Shown one piece after another: positions 17,610 through 35,080 of a stretch of 64,000 nucleotides of DNA (its first letter is position 1; each line of letters opens with the position of its first letter). The translations under genes were made by a program, and so were the position numbers. The stretch lies in the NCBI RefSeq assembly GCF_900129645.1, contig NZ_FSQZ01000001.1, forward strand, positions 744,001 through 808,000, in the 5' to 3' direction. The notes beneath the pieces were generated by a model. It made no database searches. It worked only from the letters and a program-made list of their open reading frames with translations, and had not been told where the DNA came from. This stretch comes from Acetomicrobium flavidum. GTDB taxonomy: Bacteria > Synergistota > Synergistia > Synergistales > Acetomicrobiaceae.

Positions 17610-18815
17610 TTAAAGAGCTGCCTTTAACCCTGCCTTGATCCCGGATACGATCTTTTCTATCTTGGCGTCGTCCATTACGACATCTATGCCGAACATTACG
17701 GACCTGGACAGTATGTCCTCAGTCTGAGTCCATTCCACGGGACGATACAGCGGCATGTCCTCGGCGTAAGGACAGTCAAAGGGACAACGCACTCTGGAGT
17801 AGTATTTGCCTTCCCTCAATGTTGCCCAGTGCTTCGCGTAATGCCACGTGTTGTCGCTCAATATCGCACAGCCGACACCGGCTTCCGCACATGCCTTCTT
17901 AAAGCGCATTGCCGCGTCGCCATCGGGCAACATTAGCACCAGATGAGACGCTATTTCGCCTTCCCTATCGGGCAGATCCCTCAGAGAAAGACCCTCCACG
18001 TCGCCAATGGCATCCAAGATCTTTTTCTTGTTGTTCTTTTGCGCTTCGATGGCACGATCCAACTTCGACAGCTGCACCAAGCCTAAGGCGCCCTGCAATT
18101 CGCTCATCCTGAAATTAAAGCCCAGACAAGCCTTCTTCTCGGCTCCCCTCTCTATGTTATAGTCATGCAGGTGGCCATGATCGTGATAATACTCCATTCT
18201 CTTGTAGAGCTCTTCGTCGTCGGTAAATATCATGCCGCCCTCGCCCACCGTTATGACCTTGTAAGGATCCAAGCTAAAGGCACCCCAAATGCCCAGTCCG
18301 CCACAGGCCTTACCCTTGTAAGTAGCGCCTACTGCCTGACAGGCATCCTCTATTAGGTAAAGGCCATGCAGGTCACATATCTCCCTGAAGGCATCCATGT
18401 CGGCCGCTGCGCCAAACATATGGACGGGCATTATCGCCTTTGTGCGATCCGTGATTAGGCTTTCCACGGAAGCGGGATCCAAGTTCAAGCTCTCGTCGAT
18501 ATCGCCGAGCACGGGCACGGCCCCGCACTCAAGTATCGCCTCTATGCTCGCGATAAAGGTAAAGGCGCTAGTTATGATCTCGTCTCCGGGTCCTATTCCT
18601 AAGGCCTTTAGGCCAACATAAAGGGCCGCAGAACCGCTGCTTACTCCCAGGGCATACCTTGTGCCCACCCTTTTGGCGAAGGCCTGCTCAAATTCGGATA
18701 CGCGGTAGATCCCTTCCCTCACGCCTTGAAAGGAATACCTGTGCACGACCTTTCTCCTGATGACATCGGCCAAAGCCTCGATCTCCTTCTCGTCAAACAG
18801 CTCAAAACCAGGCAT
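17610..18815 (-). CDS. kdnA: DegT/DnrJ/EryC1-type sugar aminotransferase, probably Kdo8N transaminase (KdnA-like)
   Basis: A 401-residue PLP enzyme of the sugar aminotransferase family: SSGSAALYVGLKALGIGPGDEII (phosphate binding), LIEDACQAVGATYKG (the Asp contacting the pyridine ring) and the Schiff-base Lys in SLDPYKVITVGEGG (about K186). The Fe-alcohol dehydrogenase gene ends in TAATG with this start, so the two are translationally coupled. In Shewanella such a pair, KdnB and KdnA, oxidises C8 of Kdo and then aminates it to 8-amino-3,8-dideoxy-Kdo. Location right behind waaA and the kds genes supports that role. The specific symbol is an inference. Confidence 0.72.
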   Translation of the reverse strand: MPGFELFDEKEIEALADVIRRKVVHRYSFQGVREGIYRVSEFEQAFAKRVGTRYALGVSSGSAALYVGLKALGIGPGDEIITSAFTFIASIEAILECGAVPVLGDIDESLNLDPASVESLITDRTKAIMPVHMFGAAADMDAFREICDLHGLYLIEDACQAVGATYKGKACGGLGIWGAFSLDPYKVITVGEGGMIFTDDEELYKRMEYYHDHGHLHDYNIERGAEKKACLGFNFRMSELQGALGLVQLSKLDRAIEAQKNNKKKILDAIGDVEGLSLRDLPDREGEIASHLVLMLPDGDAAMRFKKACAEAGVGCAILSDNTWHYAKHWATLREGKYYSRVRCPFDCPYAEDMPLYRPVEWTQTEDILSRSVMFGIDVVMDDAKIEKIVSGIKAGLKAAL

Positions 18816-19978
18816 TACCTCATCGCCTCCTCGTAAATTTTGATGCAAAGTTCCTTATCGAAAGGCCTAGGGTTGTTTTCCATGGGCCTGCTGACGGCCA
18901 AGGCCTTTTCTGCCATCTCAGGAAAGTGTTTGCTCGTTATGCCGACCCCTAAAGAATCTAAGGTGGCGGGCAACTCCAGATCCTCGAGCAGTTCGTCGAA
19001 GGCATCGGCGCACATAAGCGCACCATCTCTGGGACTGACCTTGGTTCCTTCGTCGATATATCCCAACCACTTTAGGACATCCGTATAGCGATCAGGGCAG
19101 CTGAACGCGTTTGCCCTGACAACATGGGGCATTAGTAAGGCATTGCCTACGCCATGCCCTACGCCGAACATCCCTCCCAGCGGATAGGAAAGGGCATGGC
19201 AAGCCCCAACTCCGGCGTGCACCAATGCCAAGCCCGCCAAATAGGCGGCATACTGCATGTGGCTTCTGGCCTCCACATTCCTTCCGTTCCAAGTCGCGAT
19301 CCTTATCCATTTCCCTATTCGCTTGATGGCTTGTTGTGCAAACATATCGCTAAACCATGTCGCATATCTGCTGGTGTAGGCCTCCACCGCATGTATAAGC
19401 GCGTCCATGCCTGACGATGCGGTGACCTTGGGGGGAGCCGTAAGGGTCAGTTCTGGGTCAAGCAGGGCATAATCGGCAAACAGCTTGTCGTCGTTTATGC
19501 CTCCCTTAAAGCCATCACTTCTGCGAATCAAAACTGCAGTAAAGGTAACCTCTGAACCCGTCCCGGCCGTCGTGGGTATCATGACCTTCAAGACTCCCGG
19601 TTTTTTTACCAAGCCCAAACCCTGGTACCGGGCGGCAGATCCCTCGTTGGTGATCAGTACACTTACGGCCTTGGCAACGTCCATACAGCTGCCGCCGCCC
19701 AAGCCTATGACCGCCTGGGCCTTAAAATCCCTGGCGGCTGCAGCGGCCTTGTCGGTAGTTTCGACCGATGGCTCGGGCTCTACCGAATCAAAGGTCGCCA
19801 CTTCCTTGCCGGCTGACTTAAGTATCTCCTCGATCCTTTTTGCAGTCCCAAGCTTCACCAAATTTTCGTCGGTGACTAAAAATACCCTCTTTGCATCCTC
19901 GCCGATCACTTCGGCAACTTTCGCGACCACGCCTGCGCCAAAAAGCGCCCTTCCCGGAATGAACATCTCAAAGGACAA
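18815..19978 (-). CDS. kdnB: iron-containing alcohol dehydrogenase, probably Kdo 8-oxidase (KdnB-like)
   Basis: A 387-residue group III dehydrogenase with the NAD-binding motif GLGGGSCMDVAKAVSVL, TTAGTGSEVTFTAVL and metal-site segments GMDALIHAVEAYTS, GACHALSYPLGGMFGVGHG and GNALLMPHVV. It starts at TTG 19978 behind GGGAGGGA. Alone it could be any Fe-ADH, but it is 31 bases behind waaA and coupled by TAATG to a sugar aminotransferase at the end of a complete Kdo gene set. That context matches KdnB of the Shewanella 8-amino-Kdo pathway. A fermentative alcohol dehydrogenase is the main alternative. Confidence 0.7.
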   Translation of the reverse strand: MSFEMFIPGRALFGAGVVAKVAEVIGEDAKRVFLVTDENLVKLGTAKRIEEILKSAGKEVATFDSVEPEPSVETTDKAAAAARDFKAQAVIGLGGGSCMDVAKAVSVLITNEGSAARYQGLGLVKKPGVLKVMIPTTAGTGSEVTFTAVLIRRSDGFKGGINDDKLFADYALLDPELTLTAPPKVTASSGMDALIHAVEAYTSRYATWFSDMFAQQAIKRIGKWIRIATWNGRNVEARSHMQYAAYLAGLALVHAGVGACHALSYPLGGMFGVGHGVGNALLMPHVVRANAFSCPDRYTDVLKWLGYIDEGTKVSPRDGALMCADAFDELLEDLELPATLDSLGVGITSKHFPEMAEKALAVSRPMENNPRPFDKELCIKIYEEAMR

Positions 19979-20009: not shown

Positions 20010-21257
20010 TCATTTCAGATGCGAAGCTATCTCCTCCCATGCCAACTTTGAGGCGCCTCCTAAGCTTTCTACGTATTGTACAGCTTTTTCCCTCAAACCG
20101 GCATCGAACTTTATCGCATTTAGCCACGCCTGAGCAAGGTCTTTTTCGCCCCTAATCACGCGAGCCACGCCCAGGCGCTCAAGCTCCACGGCAGGCAGCG
20201 AGAAATCTTCCATGTGAGGACCAAATGCTATCGGCACCCCAAAGCAGGCCGGCTCTAACACGTTTTGGCCCCCCTTGGGCACTAAGCTGCCCCCCACGAA
20301 TGCTCCGGCGGCCAGGGAATAGAGCTCAAACAAAACTCCGACTTCATCTACTATCAAGACATCCCAATTTGGCTTCACCTCAGATGACAGGCAAGCCACA
20401 AACTTATTGCACGCTAAAGCACAAACTCCTCTCGCTCGTTCGGGATGCCTCGGGACCAATATCAGCTTTGAGCTTGGTACCTCCCCTTTAACCATACCAA
20501 AGGCCTCGAGCACCACGGTTTCCTCTCCCTCGTGTGTGCTGCCTGCAACAAAACAGATGTCAGATTCATTTACGTTAAGCCTCTTCTTTAGTTCTTTCGA
20601 ATCGACATAGCCTTTCCTGAAAAGAAGCGCATCTATCTTTATATCTCCTATTATCCTTACCCTACCTGTATCTACGCCCAAACGGAAAAGCTTATCGGCA
20701 TCCGACGTCGACCGCACCAAGATCTTTGAAAAACATTCAAGGGTTTCCCTCCAAAAATCTACGGCCCTACAGGCCTTCTTAAAGGAGCGGTCCGAAAACC
20801 TTCCGTTGACCAAGAAAGAGGGCACATTCCTTTTCTTCAGTTCGTGCAGAAGGAAAGGCCAAATTTCCGTCTCCAGGCCGATGTAAGCCTTCGGCTTTAG
20901 GCAGTCCAATAGGCGCCTTATCACCCAGGGCACATCCCAGGGGTAATAAAAGTGCCCGTCAACCAAGCCGGAGAGCAGCTTTTCTGCCATGCTTTTGCCC
21001 GTAGAGGTCACCGTCGAAATTAATATAGACTCGTCGTAACCGTACCGTCTCGCCTGCAGTATCAGGGGGAAGGCCGCCTGGACCTCACCCACGGATACGC
21101 CGTGAACCCAAATTGGGCGGCTTTTAAGCTTTTCAAACTGCTCAAGGTCAGGTTTGCCGATCCTATCGCCGAAACCTTCGCGATATCGAAACCTAAGGTA
21201 GGGGTAAAGCCCCAAGTAGGCAAGGCTTATCAGCAGGGAATAGGACCTTAGGTTCAG
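20010..21257 (-). CDS. waaA: 3-deoxy-D-manno-octulosonic acid transferase (Kdo transferase)
   Basis: Transfers Kdo (or Kdo8N) from its CMP form to lipid IVA at the inner membrane. GT-B enzyme with PIWVHGVSVGEVQAAFPLI, LISTVTSTGKSMAEK, KPKAYIGLETEIWPFLLHEL, FVAGSTHEGEETVVLEAF, and near the end GGSLVPKGGQNVLEPACFGVPIAFG. The first NTG codon is TTG 21215, which has no ribosome-binding site and would delete most of the usual membrane anchor. The frame is open to the TAG of kdsD. The codon right after that TAG is CTG (21257), five bases behind GGGGGTGG, and restores the anchor LRSYSLLISLAYLGLYPYL. A CTG start is therefore proposed (415 residues); 21215 is the conservative choice. Confidence 0.9.
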   Translation of the reverse strand: MNLRSYSLLISLAYLGLYPYLRFRYREGFGDRIGKPDLEQFEKLKSRPIWVHGVSVGEVQAAFPLILQARRYGYDESILISTVTSTGKSMAEKLLSGLVDGHFYYPWDVPWVIRRLLDCLKPKAYIGLETEIWPFLLHELKKRNVPSFLVNGRFSDRSFKKACRAVDFWRETLECFSKILVRSTSDADKLFRLGVDTGRVRIIGDIKIDALLFRKGYVDSKELKKRLNVNESDICFVAGSTHEGEETVVLEAFGMVKGEVPSSKLILVPRHPERARGVCALACNKFVACLSSEVKPNWDVLIVDEVGVLFELYSLAAGAFVGGSLVPKGGQNVLEPACFGVPIAFGPHMEDFSLPAVELERLGVARVIRGEKDLAQAWLNAIKFDAGLREKAVQYVESLGGASKLAWEEIASHLK

Positions 21258-22274
21258 CTAAGCCACCCCCGCCTTCAGCATATCGTGCAGGTGAACCATG
21301 CCTACCGGCAATCCGTCCTTCATCACCACGAGGACGCTCACTTCGTATTTTTCCATCAACAGGACGCCCCTTACAGCCAGCTCGTCCGCATCGATGGTCT
21401 TCGGATTTTTGGTCATCACCTCAGCGACGGGCATGGAAAGGACGCCCGCCTCTCCCCTATCTTCTATGAGCCTCCGCAAGTCGCCATCCGTAAATATGCC
21501 CTTTAACCTTCCTTCGCCATCTACCACGATGGTGGCTCCGTAACCTTTGCTCGTGATCTCGAACAACGCTTCCCTTACGGTCGCCTTTTCCGAGACGACC
21601 GGAAGCCTGTCGTCGCTTCCCATCACGTCGCACACCTTTAGGAGCAACCTCTTGCCCAAAGAGCCTCCGGGATGAAACAGGGCAAAGTCCTCTTTTTTTA
21701 GGTGTCGCATATCAGCCACCATCACGGCTAAGGCGTCACCTATGGCAAGCTGGACGATGGCGCTGCTGGTAGGCGCCAACCCCAAAGGATCGACTTCCCT
21801 GGTGACGCTGGCATCGATCACTATATCAGCTTCCTTGCCAAGCCTGGAGGAAACATTGCCCGTTATGGCTATTATGGGGATGCCGAAGCGCTTAAAGTAG
21901 GGGATAATCTCAAGCACCTCGTTCGTCTCGCCGCTGTTGCTCAAAAATATGCCCACGTCACCGCGACATACCATCCCCAGGTCGCCGTGGATGCCTTCGG
22001 TAGCATGCAGGAAGATCGATGGCGTACCCAGCGATGCAAAGGTGGCAGCGATCTTTTTGGCTATTATCCCAGATTTTCCAAGCCCGCTTAGGACAACACG
22101 ACCTTTGCAGTCAAATACAAGCTTTGCCGCCCTTATCATCTCCACTCCCAAGCGCGATGAGACGTTGATTAGCTCCTGTGCCTCCTGCGTCAGCACTTTT
22201 TTGCCTATGTCAAGCAACCTTTCTTCTTCGCTAGAAAGGACAAAAACATCCCTTTCGGTTGCCGTATCGTTCAT
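21258..22274 (-). CDS. kdsD: D-arabinose 5-phosphate isomerase (KdsD/KpsF)
   Basis: Makes arabinose 5-phosphate from ribulose 5-phosphate, the first committed Kdo step. A SIS domain (about residues 35-185) has [38 protein letters not shown] in two blocks, and [13 protein letters not shown]. Two CBS domains follow ([20 protein letters not shown] and [18 protein letters not shown]). The ATG overlaps the kdsA stop as ATGA. The stop TAG is immediately followed, in frame, by the probable CTG start of waaA. Confidence 0.96.
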
Positions 22275-23128
22275 CTGGGTAACACCTCCTCAATGTCGAC
22301 GTAACCGAGTTCGCTCTTTACCAGGTCATCAAGTGCGATCAATTGGGCAAGAAGGCCCTTCAAATCGGACAGCGCTATCATGTTGGGGCCATCGCTTTTT
22401 GCTTCGTCAGGGTTCGGGTGTACCTCCATAAAGAGGGCATCTATCCCTATGGATACTGCCGCCCTCGCCAAGGGCGCCACGAACTTTCTGTCGCCCCCGC
22501 TTGCACCGCCCAATCCTCCCGGCATTTGCACGCTGTGGGTTGCATCGAACATCACCGGACAACCAAATGACCTCATTATGGGGATGGAACGGAAATCCAC
22601 GATCAACTGTTTATAACCGAACGTCGTTCCCCTCTCGCACAATATGACCTGATCGTTACCGGCTTCCTTGGCCTTCTCCAAGACGAAACGCATGTCGTAG
22701 GGGCTCACGAACTGCGCCTTTTTTATGTTGAGTGGTTTGCCTGTTTTAGCCGCCGAGACGAGTAAATCGGTCTGCCTGCACAGGAAGGCCGGTATTTGAA
22801 GCACGTCTGCCACTTCGGCAACGGGTGCAGCTTGAGCAGGCTCGTGAATGTCGGTCAATACCGGCACGCCAACGGTCGATTTGACTTCGCCAAGCCACCT
22901 TAGGCCAACCTCAAGGCCCGGGCCTCTGAATGAATAAATGGACGTACGATTGGCCTTATCGAAGGAAGACTTAAATATATAGCGCAACCCCAGCTCGTCG
23001 CATATCCCCTTGACCTCGCTTGCCACTTCAAGGGCAAGCGGTAGACTTTCAAGCACGCAAGGACCAGCCACCAGGACGAAGCGTCCTTCCCCTATAACTA
23101 TATCTCCGACATTTACTTTTTTAACCAA
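22271..23128 (-). CDS. kdsA: Kdo-8-phosphate synthase
   Basis: Condenses phosphoenolpyruvate with arabinose 5-phosphate. A 285-residue TIM barrel with [10 protein letters not shown] near the N-terminus, [49 protein letters not shown] (in parts) and [12 protein letters not shown]. The Cys in AGPC is at the position that distinguishes metal-dependent (Aquifex-type) from metal-independent (E. coli-type, Asn) enzymes, so it is predicted to need a divalent metal. The TTG start has GGAGATG upstream and lies 16 bases inside kdsB. It is followed by kdsD with an ATGA overlap. Confidence 0.97.
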
Positions 23129-23865
23129 GGCAATTCATCTCCATGCTCTCTTAAATATTTCTCAAAGGCTAAGACGTCCTCCTGAGTATCTATCTCGATG
23201 GTGTCTCTCTTCGACTCCACGCACAATATGTCGAAGCCCATTTCAAGAATACGCAGCATCTCAAGGCTCTCGATCTTTTCCAAGGGAGTCTGCGGCCAGC
23301 TGTCAAATTCAAGCAGAAACTGCCGCCTGTAACAGTAAGGCCCTATATGCTTGAAGTATGCGGCGCCTTTATTTCTCTCGTAGGGAATGGGGGACCTGCT
23401 AAAATACAGGGCGCGCATGTTTCGGTCGAAAACGACCTTCACTACGTTGGGATTAGAAACTTCATCTGCATTTTCAATTCGCTTTGCCAACAATGCCACG
23501 CCTATATTCCTAGATTTGCCTAAAGCCTCGACTAGGGGGTCTATCATATCAGGACCGACCATGGGATCGTCGACCTGCACGTTTAAAACGATGTCTGCAG
23601 ACTTTCGTCTGGCCACCCACGCAGTCCTGTTGCTTCCCGACGGCAGCTCCGAAGGAGTCATAATCGCCTCAAACCCCTCTTTGCGGGCGAGGGCAGCTAT
23701 ATCCTCGTGATCGGTGGCAACCGCTATATCATCTACGTTGCAACCCGAAAGCCCTTTAAGGACCCAGGAGAGCAAAGGCCTGCCCCCCATCTCCATCAAA
23801 GGTTTGCACTGCAACCTGGTACTGCCGTATCGCGCCGGCACTACCGCTAAAATGCGATTACTCAA
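23113..23865 (-). CDS. kdsB: CMP-Kdo synthetase (possibly CMP-Kdo8N specific)
   Basis: Cytidylyltransferase of 250 residues that activates Kdo with CTP. The N-terminal nucleotide motif is [11 protein letters not shown] followed by KPL. The C-terminal half is normal: [47 protein letters not shown] and [13 protein letters not shown]. Two conserved motifs differ: QVDDP (97-101) where most KdsB have QGDEP or QGDQP, and SGSNR (76-80) instead of SGTDR. With a kdnB-kdnA pair in the same operon, the substrate may be Kdo8N. It starts with TTG, overlapping the end of the lpxK fusion gene by eight bases. Confidence 0.9.
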
Positions 23866-26161
23866 CGCTCAGCTTCACCTCTTCCTCATCGTTTATTTCA
23901 TTGAATACATCCAAAAACTTATCCTCTAAGAAGCAATAAAGGTCATGCCTGTGCTTCCAGCCCAATTCATATAAAAGATACCCCGTAACGTCTTCTATGC
24001 ATCCCGGTTGGCCCATCCTTCGCCTGCCCACCGAAGACATATACCTGTGCCTTTCGCGGTCCTTCAATATAGATACGACCTCTAGGGCAAGCCTTCGCGG
24101 ATCTCTTTTTACGAGCACCTCGGCATCGCCCAAGAGCTTTTTTTGGACCCTTTTTCCCTTGTCATCCACGGAAACTACAGGGACACCCAAGCCTGCACAT
24201 ACCTGATTGGCCGTGCCGCCGAGGCCAAGCAAAACGTCAGCCCTTCGCGCTGCCGTAGAGACCGGACAGAAGGCCGCCTTCACCTTCAGGTCATCCTTCT
24301 CCAAGATATCGCCACTTAAACAATAATCCTCGAGGCTTGATGCCATCTTATGCCACTCGATGCTGGGAGCTATGACCATCAGAAAGCTGGCCTTGAGCTC
24401 CCTTGAAACCAGCTCGGCAGCCCTTAAAAGCAGCTTCACGTCGTTGTAGGCGTCCTGCCTGCTGCCGGGGAGCAAAAGAACCCTGTAACCCTCCCCCGTT
24501 GGCCATAGGGCTTCATCGGCTTCATTATTATTATCACTTGCCAAATCCATAATTGGATTGCCTGCATAGACTGCATCGACGGAACTTTTTTTCAGCTCAA
24601 CGGCAGTCATTTCATCCCTGGTCCATACCCTTCTGGCCTTATTCCTTAGTATCCACCTTTCGATTACTAGGTGACCTCTAAGGTAGACGGTCTTTGCCGT
24701 GGCCAAAAGGATGGGGGGCATCCCCTGCCCCCATAATGCATGGAGCAACAGGTAGACATCGCCCACACACAATGGGGTCCTAATCGTTCCCCTCAAGCGA
24801 GACCAGGCATCCAGTTGCCTTTTTATATGACCAAACAACCCGGCTCTTATGTCCTTCAAAAGCTCAGAAAAGCTATACTTTATCACGCCCCCGCTCGGCG
24901 TATCGAAGGGCGGCGGGTAGACTTCTATTCCTGCATCCTCAAAGACCTTGCCCTTCCCCACCAGCGGGAAAGCATACATCTGAGCTTTAGGCAGGTCCCT
25001 TTTTAAACGACCGGCAAGCATGCACGCCATGGAATCCTCCCCATGTCCGTTGGACGAGATGACGATCTTGGGTCGCAGGGCCTTCGTCAGTGCAGCAAAA
25101 AAATTCGCTTCATCGTCGACCGTGGTCATAACGCTCGGAATAAATACGGGAAAAGAGGCCTTACCATCCCTGGGCAAATTGTAGACGTCCTTTTCGGTAC
25201 ATACGGCGACTTGAGCGCCGACAGCACTGCAGCGCCGCATGATGTCGTCAAGGTCATTTCTTGAGTACAAATGATGGTCTCTGTAGCGCAACTCCTCTTT
25301 GACATCAAACCCCATGCTTTCGATAAAATTTCGAAAGCTTTCGGGATTGCCTATGGCCGAAAATATCAAGACAGGCACGCCGGGCTTTAAGGGATCTGCA
25401 TCGACAAGCGCATCGCCGTCCCATCGCTGCCATTTTTCCAAGACCAGTTTCGAGGTAAAAAGAGGCTTCCCTGGCGCATATCCCTGAACAGCAGCTATTA
25501 AAGAATTAAGGTCGTCTTTGTCCACCTGGTCGGATTTCGTGATCACCACTATATGTGACCTCATTAAGTTTTTGGGTGGCTCGCGCAATATCCCTGCGGG
25601 GAAAAGATTGCCGTTGCCGAAGGGGCAAGTGGCATCGATCAACACTATGTCCACATCCCTGGCCATTCGCCTATGTTGAAAGGTGTCGTCGGAGATGGCT
25701 ATATCCACGCCTCCCTCCGAATGCAACCTCTCAAGGGCAGCAAGCCTGTCGAGTGAGACTGCGATGGGAACATCCGGCAACCTCGACGAAAGGAGCAGAG
25801 ACTCGTCTCCAACTTCATCTCGCTTTCCTTGGCCGTTTATCACGAGAAGGGGGCTCCTGCCCTTCTTCTTGCCTCCGTATCCCCTTGTGACAATGCCGGG
25901 CCTTAACCCCAACTCCAAAAACCTTCGCGCCAGCATCTCAACGAAGGGAGTCTTATTGGTCCCCCCCATGGTGATATTTCCGACGCTTATGACCGGAAGG
26001 GAGGACTCAAAGGAGGAATTGATGCCGTGATCGTACGCGAAGTTACGACATGACACGCCGATTTCGTAAAGCAATCCAAGGGGAGAAAAAAGCAACTTGT
26101 AGAGGAAGTTTTTGGCCTTACCTCTTGTATAATCTAAATACCTATTCAAGGGCCCAGACAT
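23858..26161 (-). CDS. lpxK: fusion: tetraacyldisaccharide 4'-kinase (LpxK) + LpxB-like glycosyltransferase domain
   Basis: A 767-residue protein, about twice LpxK length. Residues 1 to about 360 are LpxK, which phosphorylates the 4' position of lipid A: VGNITMGGTNKTPFVEML (P-loop with Asn where GTGKTP is usual), IVTRGYGGKKKGRSPL, DEVGDESLLLSSRLP, DDTFQHRRMARDVDIVLID and TEKDVYNLPRD. From about residue 364 a second module begins SNGHGEDSMACMLAGRL and contains LLLPGSRQDAYNDVKLLL and GLGGTANQVCAGLGVPVV, resembling the lipid-A-disaccharide-synthase-related family known from cyanobacteria. No stop or frameshift separates them. ATG 26161 is preferred over the 11-codon extension to 26194. Confidence 0.88.
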   Translation of the reverse strand: MSGPLNRYLDYTRGKAKNFLYKLLFSPLGLLYEIGVSCRNFAYDHGINSSFESSLPVISVGNITMGGTNKTPFVEMLARRFLELGLRPGIVTRGYGGKKKGRSPLLVINGQGKRDEVGDESLLLSSRLPDVPIAVSLDRLAALERLHSEGGVDIAISDDTFQHRRMARDVDIVLIDATCPFGNGNLFPAGILREPPKNLMRSHIVVITKSDQVDKDDLNSLIAAVQGYAPGKPLFTSKLVLEKWQRWDGDALVDADPLKPGVPVLIFSAIGNPESFRNFIESMGFDVKEELRYRDHHLYSRNDLDDIMRRCSAVGAQVAVCTEKDVYNLPRDGKASFPVFIPSVMTTVDDEANFFAALTKALRPKIVISSNGHGEDSMACMLAGRLKRDLPKAQMYAFPLVGKGKVFEDAGIEVYPPPFDTPSGGVIKYSFSELLKDIRAGLFGHIKRQLDAWSRLRGTIRTPLCVGDVYLLLHALWGQGMPPILLATAKTVYLRGHLVIERWILRNKARRVWTRDEMTAVELKKSSVDAVYAGNPIMDLASDNNNEADEALWPTGEGYRVLLLPGSRQDAYNDVKLLLRAAELVSRELKASFLMVIAPSIEWHKMASSLEDYCLSGDILEKDDLKVKAAFCPVSTAARRADVLLGLGGTANQVCAGLGVPVVSVDDKGKRVQKKLLGDAEVLVKRDPRRLALEVVSILKDRERHRYMSSVGRRRMGQPGCIEDVTGYLLYELGWKHRHDLYCFLEDKFLDVFNEINDEEEVKLSVE

Positions 26162-26228
26162 TTCGACCACCAACCGACAAACAATATGAGACACCGCAAG
26201 CTTTCAAGCCAAAAATACGGTAACGTTA

Positions 26229-29683: not shown

Positions 29684-30780
29684 TGCATTATCTCCTCCGC
29701 CAATCGCTTCGAGGCCCCGTATGACGATGTCAATTGGCCCATCAGTTCGGACGTTTTTTTAAGCCAATCGATGTCGTTTAAATATTCGATCATCGCCTCT
29801 GCAAGCTCCTTTGGCGTGTAATCTCCCACAAGTTCAGGGATCAAGTTTATACCTGTTATTCTATTAGGCCACGAGAGCATGCCCTTCTTTTTAGATAGGG
29901 ACTGCAACAGCCTATCTTTAACCAAGGGCAAACGCAACATAACTCCCTTAAGTCCGCTAAACGGTATATCGCTTAAAAAGGCGTAAGGCACTGCCACGAG
30001 AGTAGGCACCCTTAAATAAAGCAATTCCAACGTGTTAGTACCAGGCTGCGTCAACGCCAAATCTACGCCCCTTAAAGCAAACGGGGTGCTTTCCCTGGTT
30101 GGATTCAAGCCGGCTTCTTCCCATGCCTTTACCTCTTCGTCCAAAGAAAAAGGCGAAAGCAAGGTTATGACGTCTATATCCAATAAGCTTCGAAGATGGC
30201 CGTACAGTTCCCTTAAATAAGACAAGGCCCTTCGCCTTATGGCCGGCCTGCTGCCCGGGAAAAGGGCAACTTTTCGTGACGTGTACTTTTGAGCCGGTAA
30301 ACCCATTTTAGGGCCTTCGCCCACGTCAAGATCCAATCTCAGAGAATCGGCGACCAGATCGCCAATCACCAGGGGGGAAACGCCATCTTCTCGAATGTGG
30401 TCTGCCATGACCTCATAAGCGGTAAAGACCCTGGAACAACCGCGCAGTCCCCTTTTCCTGCCATAGGTATAGCAGAAAAGCTCCGCGCCGCTCATCCTCG
30501 ATAAAAACCTTCCAAACATCAAGTCTCCGCCAAGCTGTACGACTAACCCAACATCTCTTGCCCTGATCGACTCATAAAAGGTCTTTGCCCAATTGTAGGG
30601 ACCGATGATGCGATAAAAGGAAAGCCTGTGGGCACAGGTTCTTTCCATGCCGGAAGCGAACTGGCACGGGAGCAACCATAATACGGATCTGATCCCCCTT
30701 TTATCGAGCTCGTAAACCAAGGGCCTAGCCCAATCCCAAAGCTCTCCCGGACCGTTTGTAAGTATATATACCGCCTTCAT
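29671..30780 (-). CDS. LpxB-like glycosyltransferase paralogue
   Basis: A 369-residue GT-B-type protein. It starts MKAVYILTNGPGELWDWARPL, with NGPGE where LpxB has GEASGD. It also has VVQLGGDLMFG, VALFPGSRPAIRRRALSYL and LALTQPGTNTLELLYLRVPTLVAVPYAFL, which parallel the nucleotide-sugar site of LpxB. It overlaps lpxB as ATGA, so it is strictly coupled to it. The true disaccharide synthase is probably the upstream gene; this copy may add another sugar to lipid A/core or support LpxB. Its exact reaction is unknown. Confidence 0.75.
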   Translation of the reverse strand: MKAVYILTNGPGELWDWARPLVYELDKRGIRSVLWLLPCQFASGMERTCAHRLSFYRIIGPYNWAKTFYESIRARDVGLVVQLGGDLMFGRFLSRMSGAELFCYTYGRKRGLRGCSRVFTAYEVMADHIREDGVSPLVIGDLVADSLRLDLDVGEGPKMGLPAQKYTSRKVALFPGSRPAIRRRALSYLRELYGHLRSLLDIDVITLLSPFSLDEEVKAWEEAGLNPTRESTPFALRGVDLALTQPGTNTLELLYLRVPTLVAVPYAFLSDIPFSGLKGVMLRLPLVKDRLLQSLSKKKGMLSWPNRITGINLIPELVGDYTPKELAEAMIEYLNDIDWLKKTSELMGQLTSSYGASKRLAEEIMQCLG

Positions 30781-31880
30781 CGTCCCACCGTTTCGGCAAT
30801 GACGTCAGCCCAAAATTTGTACGCTCCGCGATCGCCCATCTTGCTTCTGGCCTTTGCCAGATCGTTGTGTACCTTTGTTGTGTCCTTCAAATACCTTAAC
30901 ACCGCCTCCAGCGCCGATGAAGCTTTGACCTCGCCTTGAAGCAGCTCGGGGTAAACTTCGCGCCCCAACAGTATGTTGGGCATGGCAACCCACTGCGTTT
31001 TAACCATGAGCTTGTAGACCAAATAGCTTAAAAACGAGGCCTTGTACAAAGCGACCATGAATTTATCCAACATCATGGCCTCCACGGCAGCTGTACCGCA
31101 GGCACCGATGACAAATTCCGACACGTACATCAGGTCAACTCCCTTGCCCTCAAAAAACGACAAGCCGCTATCCATTCTTTTTAGCGCCTGCCGATCGACG
31201 GAAGGCAAGCTTTTGGCGACAGAGACCACCGGATTATAGCCCATACGCTTCAGTTCGACGCCAACTTCCCTTAAAACAGGGGCAAGGCGCCTGACCTCTG
31301 TCGATCTGCTGCCCGGCAGGAGGGCAACTATGCGTTTTCCGCTATAGGCATTAATTACATCTTCGTCCGGGGCGTAATCGCACAGGTCATCCAGCAAGGG
31401 ATGTCCCATCCAGCGGCTTTCGACTCCCTTGTCGGTGTAAAAGCGGTGTTCGAACTCAAACAACGGGAAACACGTTACCTCAAGATCCCTGATCACATCA
31501 GCCCTCTTTGCCCGCCACGCCCAAGCCGTCGGCGGCGAGACATAAAAGATAGGGTTTCGATACCCCTTTCTTCGAATCGCCTTAATCAAGGGTATATGGT
31601 AGTCGGGGCTATCGATGACCACCACACAATCGGGCATCTCCTTCAGTACGGAATTTGCCATTCTATCTTTGAGGCGAGACAGCCTTAAAAGGCTTTTGAG
31701 GCCTTCCGAAATGCCCATGACCTGAAGCTCGCTGTAGCTCCAAACTTCATGCCCTCCCGACGTAGTGCCTTCGGGTCCGAGCATCCCCCAACAACGCCCC
31801 AGCCTGCCATCTAAGGCCTTTATGAGGCATCCGGCATAATGGTCGCCGGAGGCCTCACCGCAGCTTAAAAATAAGCTCAA
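30777..31880 (-). CDS. lpxB: lipid-A-disaccharide synthase
   Basis: Joins UDP-diacylglucosamine and lipid X to form the lipid A disaccharide. A 367-residue peripheral membrane enzyme beginning LFLSCGEASGDHYAG, with LQVMGISEGLKSLLRL, VVVIDSPDYHIPLIKAIRRKG, FYVSPPTAWAWRAKRAD, the hinge motif RWMGHPLLDDL and ALLPGSRSTEVRRLAPVL. These are all standard LpxB motifs. It starts at TTG 31880, overlapping the lpxI stop as TTGA with GGGGGTAAGG upstream, and ends in an ATGA overlap with the paralogue. Confidence 0.96.
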   Translation of the reverse strand: MSLFLSCGEASGDHYAGCLIKALDGRLGRCWGMLGPEGTTSGGHEVWSYSELQVMGISEGLKSLLRLSRLKDRMANSVLKEMPDCVVVIDSPDYHIPLIKAIRRKGYRNPIFYVSPPTAWAWRAKRADVIRDLEVTCFPLFEFEHRFYTDKGVESRWMGHPLLDDLCDYAPDEDVINAYSGKRIVALLPGSRSTEVRRLAPVLREVGVELKRMGYNPVVSVAKSLPSVDRQALKRMDSGLSFFEGKGVDLMYVSEFVIGACGTAAVEAMMLDKFMVALYKASFLSYLVYKLMVKTQWVAMPNILLGREVYPELLQGEVKASSALEAVLRYLKDTTKVHNDLAKARSKMGDRGAYKFWADVIAETVGR

Positions 31881-33800: not shown

Positions 33801-34271
33801 CTACCGTCCCCTCTTAAGGAGCATATCGGCAACTTCCCTGACGGCCCCTTGTCCGCCGCTTGAGGCCGTGACGTAATCTGCAGCTTCTTTCGTCTCCTGT
33901 CTGGCATTCGCCACCGCTACGCCGAGGCCAGCCCACTTGATGCATTCGATATCGTTGACGTCATCGCCCATGTAGGCAACTTCCTCAGGCTTCAAGTTCA
34001 GCTTTTCGGAAAGGGATACAAGGGTAGCCAGCTTATCCTTCACGCCATTAAATACAAAGGGTATGCCCAGGTCCTTTGCTCGTTGATCGGTGGAGGCAGA
34101 AAACCTTCCGCTTATAATCGCAACCTCGATGCCCTGGCGCCTTAGCATGGCAATTCCCATGCCGTCTTGGATGTCAAAACGTTTAAATTCATGGCCTTCG
34201 CCGTCCATGTAAACCGATCCGTCGGTCAACGTCCCATCCACATCCAGCGCCAAAAGCTTAATATCCATCAT
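33801..34271 (-). CDS. kdsC: Kdo-8-phosphate phosphatase
   Basis: HAD phosphatase of about 156 residues without a cap domain, producing free Kdo. Motif I is LLALDVDGTLTDGSVYMDGEG, motif II is in VAIISGRFSASTD, and motif III is EEVAYMGDDVNDIECIKWAGLGVAVANA. The family hallmark KRFDIQDGMGIAMLRRQG is present. ATG 34271 overlaps the lpxA stop (ATGA); a second ATG follows at 34268. It lies in the lpx half of the cluster, separate from kdsD-A-B. Confidence 0.95.
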   Translation of the reverse strand: MMDIKLLALDVDGTLTDGSVYMDGEGHEFKRFDIQDGMGIAMLRRQGIEVAIISGRFSASTDQRAKDLGIPFVFNGVKDKLATLVSLSEKLNLKPEEVAYMGDDVNDIECIKWAGLGVAVANARQETKEAADYVTASSGGQGAVREVADMLLKRGR

Positions 34272-35080
34272 TCCACATCTCCCATGAAGACGCGCGCGCT
34301 GGGCCATGGCACCAAGCCTCTCCTGGATCTATCGAAGAAGCTTACTATCTCAGTGATGATGGGATCGCCAAGGCCTTGCCTTCGCATCATCTCGACAGCT
34401 TGTCTTAAGGGCAATCCATTGTGATAAAGTTGTCTGTAAATTCGCTTTATATGCTCCCTTAACGTCGAGTCAAAGCCTGCACGCTGAAGGCCGACCTTAT
34501 TTATGCCGTAGATCCTTGCGGGCCTTCCGTCCGCCAGGACGAAGGGGGGGATATCCTTTACGACCTTGGATAGGCCTCCGATCATGCACAACCTGCCTAT
34601 CTTGACGAACTGATGTATTCCCACCATTCCCCCGAGATTGGCGTAATCTTCCACCTCACAGTAGCCGGCAAGCCCGCTTTTGTTTGCCACAATGACGTGA
34701 TTTCCGATCCTAACGTTATGTCCCACGTGAACACCCTCCATCAGAAACACGTCATCACCGATCACGGTAGATTGCCCTTCGCCCGTGGCACGGTGTATCG
34801 TCACGCCTTCCCTTATTATTGTGCGATCGCCCACGACGACCTTCGTCCTTTCGCCACGAAAGGAATGATCCTGCGGCTCCCCGCCTATGACAGCATTTTC
34901 ATATATCCTGCAATCCTGCCCAATCTGGACAAAATTAAATATCCTCACGTAAGCCCCTATCACGGTATTTTTGCCGATAAATACCTCATCTTCAATGATG
35001 CTGTAGGGACCTATGGTAACCCCTTCGTCCAGTTCGGCCTTGGAAGATACGATAGCAGTCGGATGTATGGTCCCCTTCAT
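34268..35080 (-). CDS. lpxA: UDP-N-acetylglucosamine acyltransferase
   Basis: First step of lipid A synthesis. A 270-residue left-handed beta helix built of hexapeptide repeats, beginning IHPTAIVSSKAELDEGVTIGPYS. It has VTIHRATGEGQSTVIG, the catalytic His region FLMEGVHVGHNVRIGNHV and YANLGGMVGIHQFVKIG, with the usual C-terminal helical domain after GINKVGLQRAGF. It starts two bases after fabZ and ends overlapping kdsC. Confidence 0.97.
   Translation of the reverse strand: MKGTIHPTAIVSSKAELDEGVTIGPYSIIEDEVFIGKNTVIGAYVRIFNFVQIGQDCRIYENAVIGGEPQDHSFRGERTKVVVGDRTIIREGVTIHRATGEGQSTVIGDDVFLMEGVHVGHNVRIGNHVIVANKSGLAGYCEVEDYANLGGMVGIHQFVKIGRLCMIGGLSKVVKDIPPFVLADGRPARIYGINKVGLQRAGFDSTLREHIKRIYRQLYHNGLPLRQAVEMMRRQGLGDPIITEIVSFFDRSRRGLVPWPSARVFMGDVE

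Follow-up and report, generated by a model that had tools for sequence, protein, structure and literature searches.

In nearly all LPS, Kdo joins lipid A to the core. Does the gene pair that closes the Kdo cluster of Acetomicrobium flavidum (Synergistota) convert this sugar into its 8-amino form, Kdo8N, which has been called a hallmark of Shewanella (PMC6357163)? The relevant papers found in a literature search on Kdo8N concern Shewanella, and no LPS or Kdo sugar structures from Synergistota were found in that search. No enzyme or LPS from a member outside Shewanella is known to have been assayed. The chemistry has so far been tied to that one genus, and its genes are found here across several phyla. 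For the pair in the window (the whole 64,000-nucleotide stretch of DNA that was analyzed), we consider it highly probable that it forms a Kdo8N branch: after oxidation of Kdo at C8, KdnA would aminate the product, a dedicated KdsB would activate the amino sugar, and WaaA would transfer it.

The locus and its aminotransferase

The pair comprises an Fe-alcohol dehydrogenase (Fe-ADH; 158 bits to Pfam Fe-ADH and 167 bits to ADH_Fe_C) and a DegT aminotransferase (299 bits in Pfam), encoded on the minus strand, coupled by TAATG, and downstream of kdsB-kdsA-kdsD-waaA on the same strand. The preliminary description had given both the pair and its position, and both are confirmed, the former by Pfam and the sequence and the latter by the ORFs of the window and their profile matches. 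The features are as follows.

17610–18815, minus strand: kdnA, PLP-dependent aminotransferase, 401 aa, predicted C8 amination of 8-oxo-Kdo (5k8b match, motifs)
18813–18817, minus strand: TAATG stop/start overlap (...AGG-TAATG-CCT...), coupling of kdnA and Fe-ADH (sequence)
18815–19978, minus strand: Fe-ADH, KdnB-equivalent, 387 aa, predicted NAD-linked oxidation of the C8 alcohol of Kdo (Pfam, metal ligands, signature)
20010–21215, minus strand: waaA, Kdo transferase (NCBIfam PRK05749 families, 273 bits, under curated cut-offs)
21258–22274, minus strand: kdsD, arabinose-5-phosphate isomerase (TIGR00393, 300 bits, above cut-off; PRK10892, 322 bits)
22271–23128, minus strand: kdsA, Kdo-8-phosphate synthase (PRK05198, 414 bits, and TIGR01362, 394 bits, above cut-off)
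23113–23865, minus strand: kdsB of the KdnA-associated clade, predicted CMP-Kdo8N synthetase (KdsB tree; co-occurrence with KdnA)
23858–26194, minus strand: lpxK fused to an lpxB-related domain (TIGR00682 above cut-off, residues 39–340; TIGR03492, 209 bits against a cut-off of 219, residues 381–740)
33801–34307, minus strand: kdsC phosphatase, source of free Kdo, the predicted branch substrate (TIGR01670, 170 bits, above cut-off)

The DegT ORF as listed starts at a TTG (18848). The ATG at 18815 (MPGFELF...) is the start common to relatives and to Shewanella KdnA, and the kdnA coordinates given above therefore begin there. Genes resembling lpxD, lpxC, fabZ, lpxA, lpxB, and msbA were also recognized in the window (by reading, with no profile search); since lpx, kds, and waaA genes share the window, the pair closes a large lipid A/Kdo supercluster. 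The fusion of lpxK to an lpxB-related domain is a single reading frame, and a separate lpxB-like ORF lies at 30777–31880; in relatives, both domains adjoin in unchanged order. The order kdsB-kdsA-kdsD-waaA-ADH-kdnA is repeated in nine Synergistota neighborhoods from other genomes (L035–L039, L046, L051–L053, L074) and, given this recurrence, is not due to chance.

Among all solved structures, the closest relative of the window aminotransferase is Shewanella KdnA (PDB entry 5k8b; 324 bits, near full length), followed at a gap of 127 bits by perosamine synthetase (197 bits). The alignment with the S. oneidensis enzyme (SO2476; 8-amino-3,8-dideoxy-manno-octulosonate transaminase) extends over nearly the full length from MPGFELF on, although identity is 42%. 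The catalytic-Lys region and invariant DHGH-H and WH motifs are common to the aligned KdnA homologs, and the window protein has this region together with DHGHxH and WHY. Both DHGHxH and WH[YFW] are present in all 120 KdnA homologs collected, and neither was found in the six DegT paralogs sampled, two of which are encoded in the same genome as the window. DegT sugar aminotransferases, perosamine synthetase among them (3dr7, 3bn1), share the superfamily and PLP chemistry, but match the window protein about 127 bits more weakly, and the sampled paralogs lack its DHGHxH and WHY. In the KdnA tree (a quick tree with SH-aLRT support only), the homologs, including Shewanella KdnA, are split from DegT paralogs at a 100* branch. 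By best match, motifs, and tree, the window aminotransferase is a clear KdnA. Linkage of kdnA to a dehydrogenase and kdsB is likewise common to both organisms; the Shewanella order is kdnA-kdnB-kdsB (L146), whereas the window kdnA comes after waaA, as the last gene of a long lipid A/Kdo cluster.

Gene neighborhoods of kdnA

KdnA matches above 300 bits occur in 93 of 188 Synergistota genomes, approximately half of the sequenced species. In the KdsB tree, Synergistota sequences form a canonical clade (25 rows; 97/90) and a KdnA-associated clade, KdsB-N (41 rows; 100/99), into which the window KdsB falls. The co-occurrence table for the 188 genomes, from lists transcribed by hand, contains 88 genomes with both KdnA and KdsB-N, 5 with KdnA alone, 8 with KdsB-N alone, and 87 with neither (Fisher p ~3e-37, uncorrected for shared ancestry, the counts not being phylogenetically independent). 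For KdnA and either type of dehydrogenase, the corresponding numbers are 87, 6, 4 (dehydrogenase alone), and 91. None of the 188 genomes has both the window type and the KdnB type of dehydrogenase.

Four kinds of neighborhood surround kdnA in Synergistota. Kind A has either the window order, with waaA-ADH-kdnA at its end, or kdsB-ADH-kdnA; kind B has kdsB, a KdnB-type ADH, and kdnA; kind C has kdsB-kdnA, the KdnB-type ADH lying close by or at another locus, and its KdnA is 49–53% identical to that of Shewanella; and kind D, in early-branching families, has kdsD-waaA-ADH-kdnA. An ADH of the window/D type is found in 39 of the 40 KdnA genomes of kinds A and D, and the KdnB type in none; the KdnB type is present in 26/26 genomes of kind B and 22/27 of kind C. 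An ADH from kind B (L048) is recognizably of the KdnB type, scoring 192 bits against 3rf7, 173 against 5k8c, and 65 against the next structure. In the KdnA tree, the Synergistota group with KdnB-type dehydrogenases (B) is nested within the window-type group (A), and both have KdsB-N, which implies that the ADH type was exchanged while KdnA and KdsB were kept. Judged from these sequences, the two dehydrogenases look interchangeable.

Several apparent exceptions to co-occurrence lie at contig ends (G039, where kdnA itself is incomplete, G120, G156, G177, and G181). Real cases of KdsB-N without KdnA number two, G019, discussed below, and G145. The latter genome, 96% complete, has a KdnA-clade kdsB among unrelated neighbors (L177, 5384–6130) and no kdnA.

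Outside the phylum, at least 432 relatives of KdnA were found in a scan of 84,980 species, of which the best 80 belong to Desulfobacterota, Bacteroidota, Omnitrophota, Elusimicrobiota, Synergistota, and Shewanella. Within 2.5 kb of kdnA, an ADH of either type is encoded in 36 of these best 80, and KdsB in 24. Chitinophaga skermanii and Aequorivita lipolytica are examples of Bacteroidota with KdnA. A KdnB ortholog (at least 437 bits, 55–62% identity) was found in 30 of 34 genomes searched, nearly all of them genomes without an ADH close to KdnA. Of the points raised in the preliminary description, conserved linkage in other Synergistota and a wider distribution of the branch genes are both supported, the former by the recurring orders and the 188-genome co-occurrence, the latter far beyond Shewanella.

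These neighborhoods bear on whether the pair could make some other amino sugar, with a heptose, inosose, or nucleotide sugar as precursor, for example, its position in the Kdo cluster being coincidental. Both enzyme families are versatile, and the nearest characterized relatives of the ADH are unconnected with LPS. We nevertheless regard this as very unlikely, in view of the KdnA-specific motifs in every homolog collected, a PDB ranking that favors KdnA, and a kdsB linkage that appears in varied Synergistota neighborhoods and again in Desulfobacterota, Bacteroidota, and Shewanella.

The dehydrogenase partner

The preliminary description had taken the pair to be the same two enzymes as in Shewanella. 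This stands for KdnA, but the dehydrogenase cannot simply be called a KdnB. Among solved structures, it is closest to NAD-dependent methanol and propanediol dehydrogenases, with an NAD-dependent methanol dehydrogenase first at 231 bits; Shewanella KdnB (SO2477, PDB entry 5k8c, cd08184), the Kdo 8-oxidase, ranks 27th of 45 solved matches at 133 bits, is ~28% identical, and has a shorter C terminus. An AlphaFold model of the window enzyme (mean pLDDT 95, pTM 0.93) gives fold matches in the same methanol/propanediol dehydrogenase group, and KdnB is absent from its top 50. From this ranking, the ADH was at first thought to be an unrelated replacement of KdnB, an idea weakened by the tree of outsiders and the shared residues described below.

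With KdnB as query, window-type ADHs are the closest sequences outside the KdnB type, reaching 157 bits against 99 for any characterized enzyme in the set; the best PDB match outside the type scores 77 bits. Two very long paralogs of the window genome weakened the backbone of an earlier ADH tree, which was replaced. In the rebuilt tree, a 100/95 branch separates all KdnA-linked ADHs from all sampled characterized and unlinked ADHs (FucO, EutG, AdhE, YiaY, YqhD, DhaT, and MDH as outsiders), with the KdnB type on a very long branch of unsure placement in this unrooted tree.

All four metal ligands (D192, H196, H261, H275) are intact in the window enzyme, which shares them and its role in the operon with KdnB. 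Of 47 KdnA-linked ADHs, window and KdnB types alike, nearly all have a five-residue signature, E69/D76/G160/N162/Y265, with E69 and Y265 present in every one, and the full set was found in none of 17 unlinked or characterized dehydrogenases. FucO, DhaT, and the NAD-methanol dehydrogenases resemble the window enzyme in fold and metal site, but have an incomplete signature and His at the position of Tyr265 (7/7 characterized Fe-ADHs sampled). Thus, of the proposed correspondence with KdnB, the metal ligands and signature are kept, while the closest characterized homologs are methanol/propanediol dehydrogenases. Residues and tree together suggest kinship with KdnB, orthology being unproven, and on these comparisons the enzyme is better named a KdnB-equivalent than an ordinary KdnB.

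Unlinked Synergistota Fe-ADHs (L196–L200) mostly have Tyr at position 265 without the full signature of the KdnA-linked enzymes; they are possibly a sister group to these.

The low rank of KdnB, and its absence among the top fold matches, could also indicate that only the aminotransferase is active in the branch, the Fe-ADH being an unrelated housekeeping enzyme and 8-oxo-Kdo being supplied by another. This is the least likely of the alternatives, and very unlikely in our estimate. A housekeeping role is at odds with the near-complete presence of this ADH type in KdnA genomes of kinds A and D, which have no KdnB, with its position adjoining or overlapping kdnA in the neighborhoods read, with the signature that it has in common with KdnB, and with active-site decay where KdnA is gone. 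The last is seen in G019, which has kept the cluster and the KdnA-associated KdsB; the gene after the ADH is here a heptose kinase/adenylyltransferase, HldE-like by reading. In the G019 ADH (L175, 3440–4600), three of the four metal ligands (D192, H196, H261) are gone, as are E69, N162, and Y265, and by its residues it is a decaying or repurposed copy. An ADH that depends on KdnA would be predicted to lose its active site in this way, a prediction matched in this one case.

In another genome, without KdsB or a close KdnA match (G178), a window-type dehydrogenase is spread over two reading frames (L202, 2509–3587); this may reflect either pseudogenization or misassembly at a contig end.

KdsB and the predicted pathway

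Canonical and KdnA-associated KdsBs occur together in 21 Synergistota genomes, mostly of kind B, and in those examined the canonical gene is found close to waaA. On the plain reading of these sequences, the second, KdnA-associated enzyme would handle the KdnA product. The window genome has a single strong KdsB match and no second among the matches listed (down to ~154 bits). One two-KdsB genome (G129) contains, between waaA and the canonical kdsB, an unassigned gene of ~400 aa (L159, 3076–4287); a gap similar in size to this interval is seen in many relatives.

A KdsB clade for Kdo8N spanning phyla was not found, KdnA-linked KdsBs of different phyla not grouping together in the KdsB tree, and specialization is therefore argued within Synergistota only. 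The window KdsB resembles that of Shewanella (SO2478), which has been described as CMP-Kdo8N synthetase, in its KdnA linkage and in replacement of the canonical GDEP Glu (E. coli E101) by Asp here and Gln there; the two nevertheless belong to different clades of the tree. This position fails as a lone marker of specificity and gives no simple rule, because KdnA-linked Bacteroidota enzymes keep Glu. The differences at E. coli E101, I184, Q211, and R244, positions that are conserved otherwise, are candidate specificity determinants.

Specificity of KdsB for Kdo8N is itself a prediction, and the pair follows waaA in the window cluster; it might modify C8 at a later stage, once Kdo has been activated (CMP-Kdo) or transferred (Kdo-lipid A), so that KdsB need not be Kdo8N-specific. 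Such late amination is hard to reconcile with a separate KdnA-associated KdsB clade kept beside the canonical enzyme in 21 genomes. The Shewanella conversion, moreover, reportedly acts on free Kdo (work of Gattis et al. in 2013), and we consider late amination very unlikely.

In the Kdo8N branch that we favor, free Kdo would be supplied by KdsD, KdsA, and KdsC. The Fe-ADH is predicted to oxidize its C8 alcohol to the aldehyde, 8-oxo-Kdo, probably in a reaction dependent on NAD+ and a divalent metal; the choice of NAD is suggested by NAD-dependent relatives and anaerobic lineages. For KdnB, O2-linked activity and tightly bound NAD(H) in the crystal have reportedly been found. KdnA would then transaminate the aldehyde to 8-amino-3,8-dideoxy-Kdo (Kdo8N), with glutamate, the donor of the Shewanella enzyme, as predicted donor. 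With NH2 replacing OH, Kdo8N weighs about 1 Da less than Kdo, and in Shewanella its C8 gives a high-field signal near 44–45 ppm (PMC6357163). The specialized KdsB would convert this to CMP-Kdo8N, and WaaA would attach Kdo8N to lipid A. Mature LPS would thus carry an inner-core amine, with the effect on cationic peptides envisaged in the preliminary description as a possible consequence.

More broadly, Kdo8N may be a widespread inner-core sugar in at least Synergistota, Desulfobacterota, and Bacteroidota, may fully replace Kdo in the window lineage through a KdsB dedicated to Kdo8N, and may arise in strict anaerobes by C8 oxidation that a KdnB-equivalent runs on NAD and not O2; we put the chances of this whole proposal at even. 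If it is true, replacement of the C8 hydroxyl by an amine would be a common inner-core variation, altering surface charge and perhaps tolerance to polymyxin and bile salts, on which loss of Kdo8N is said to bear in Shewanella deletion work. The two-KdsB genomes and the exchange of dehydrogenases form a natural series for finding the determinants of Kdo8N specificity, and the same series bears on whether the O2-linked activity of KdnB reported in vitro is physiological.
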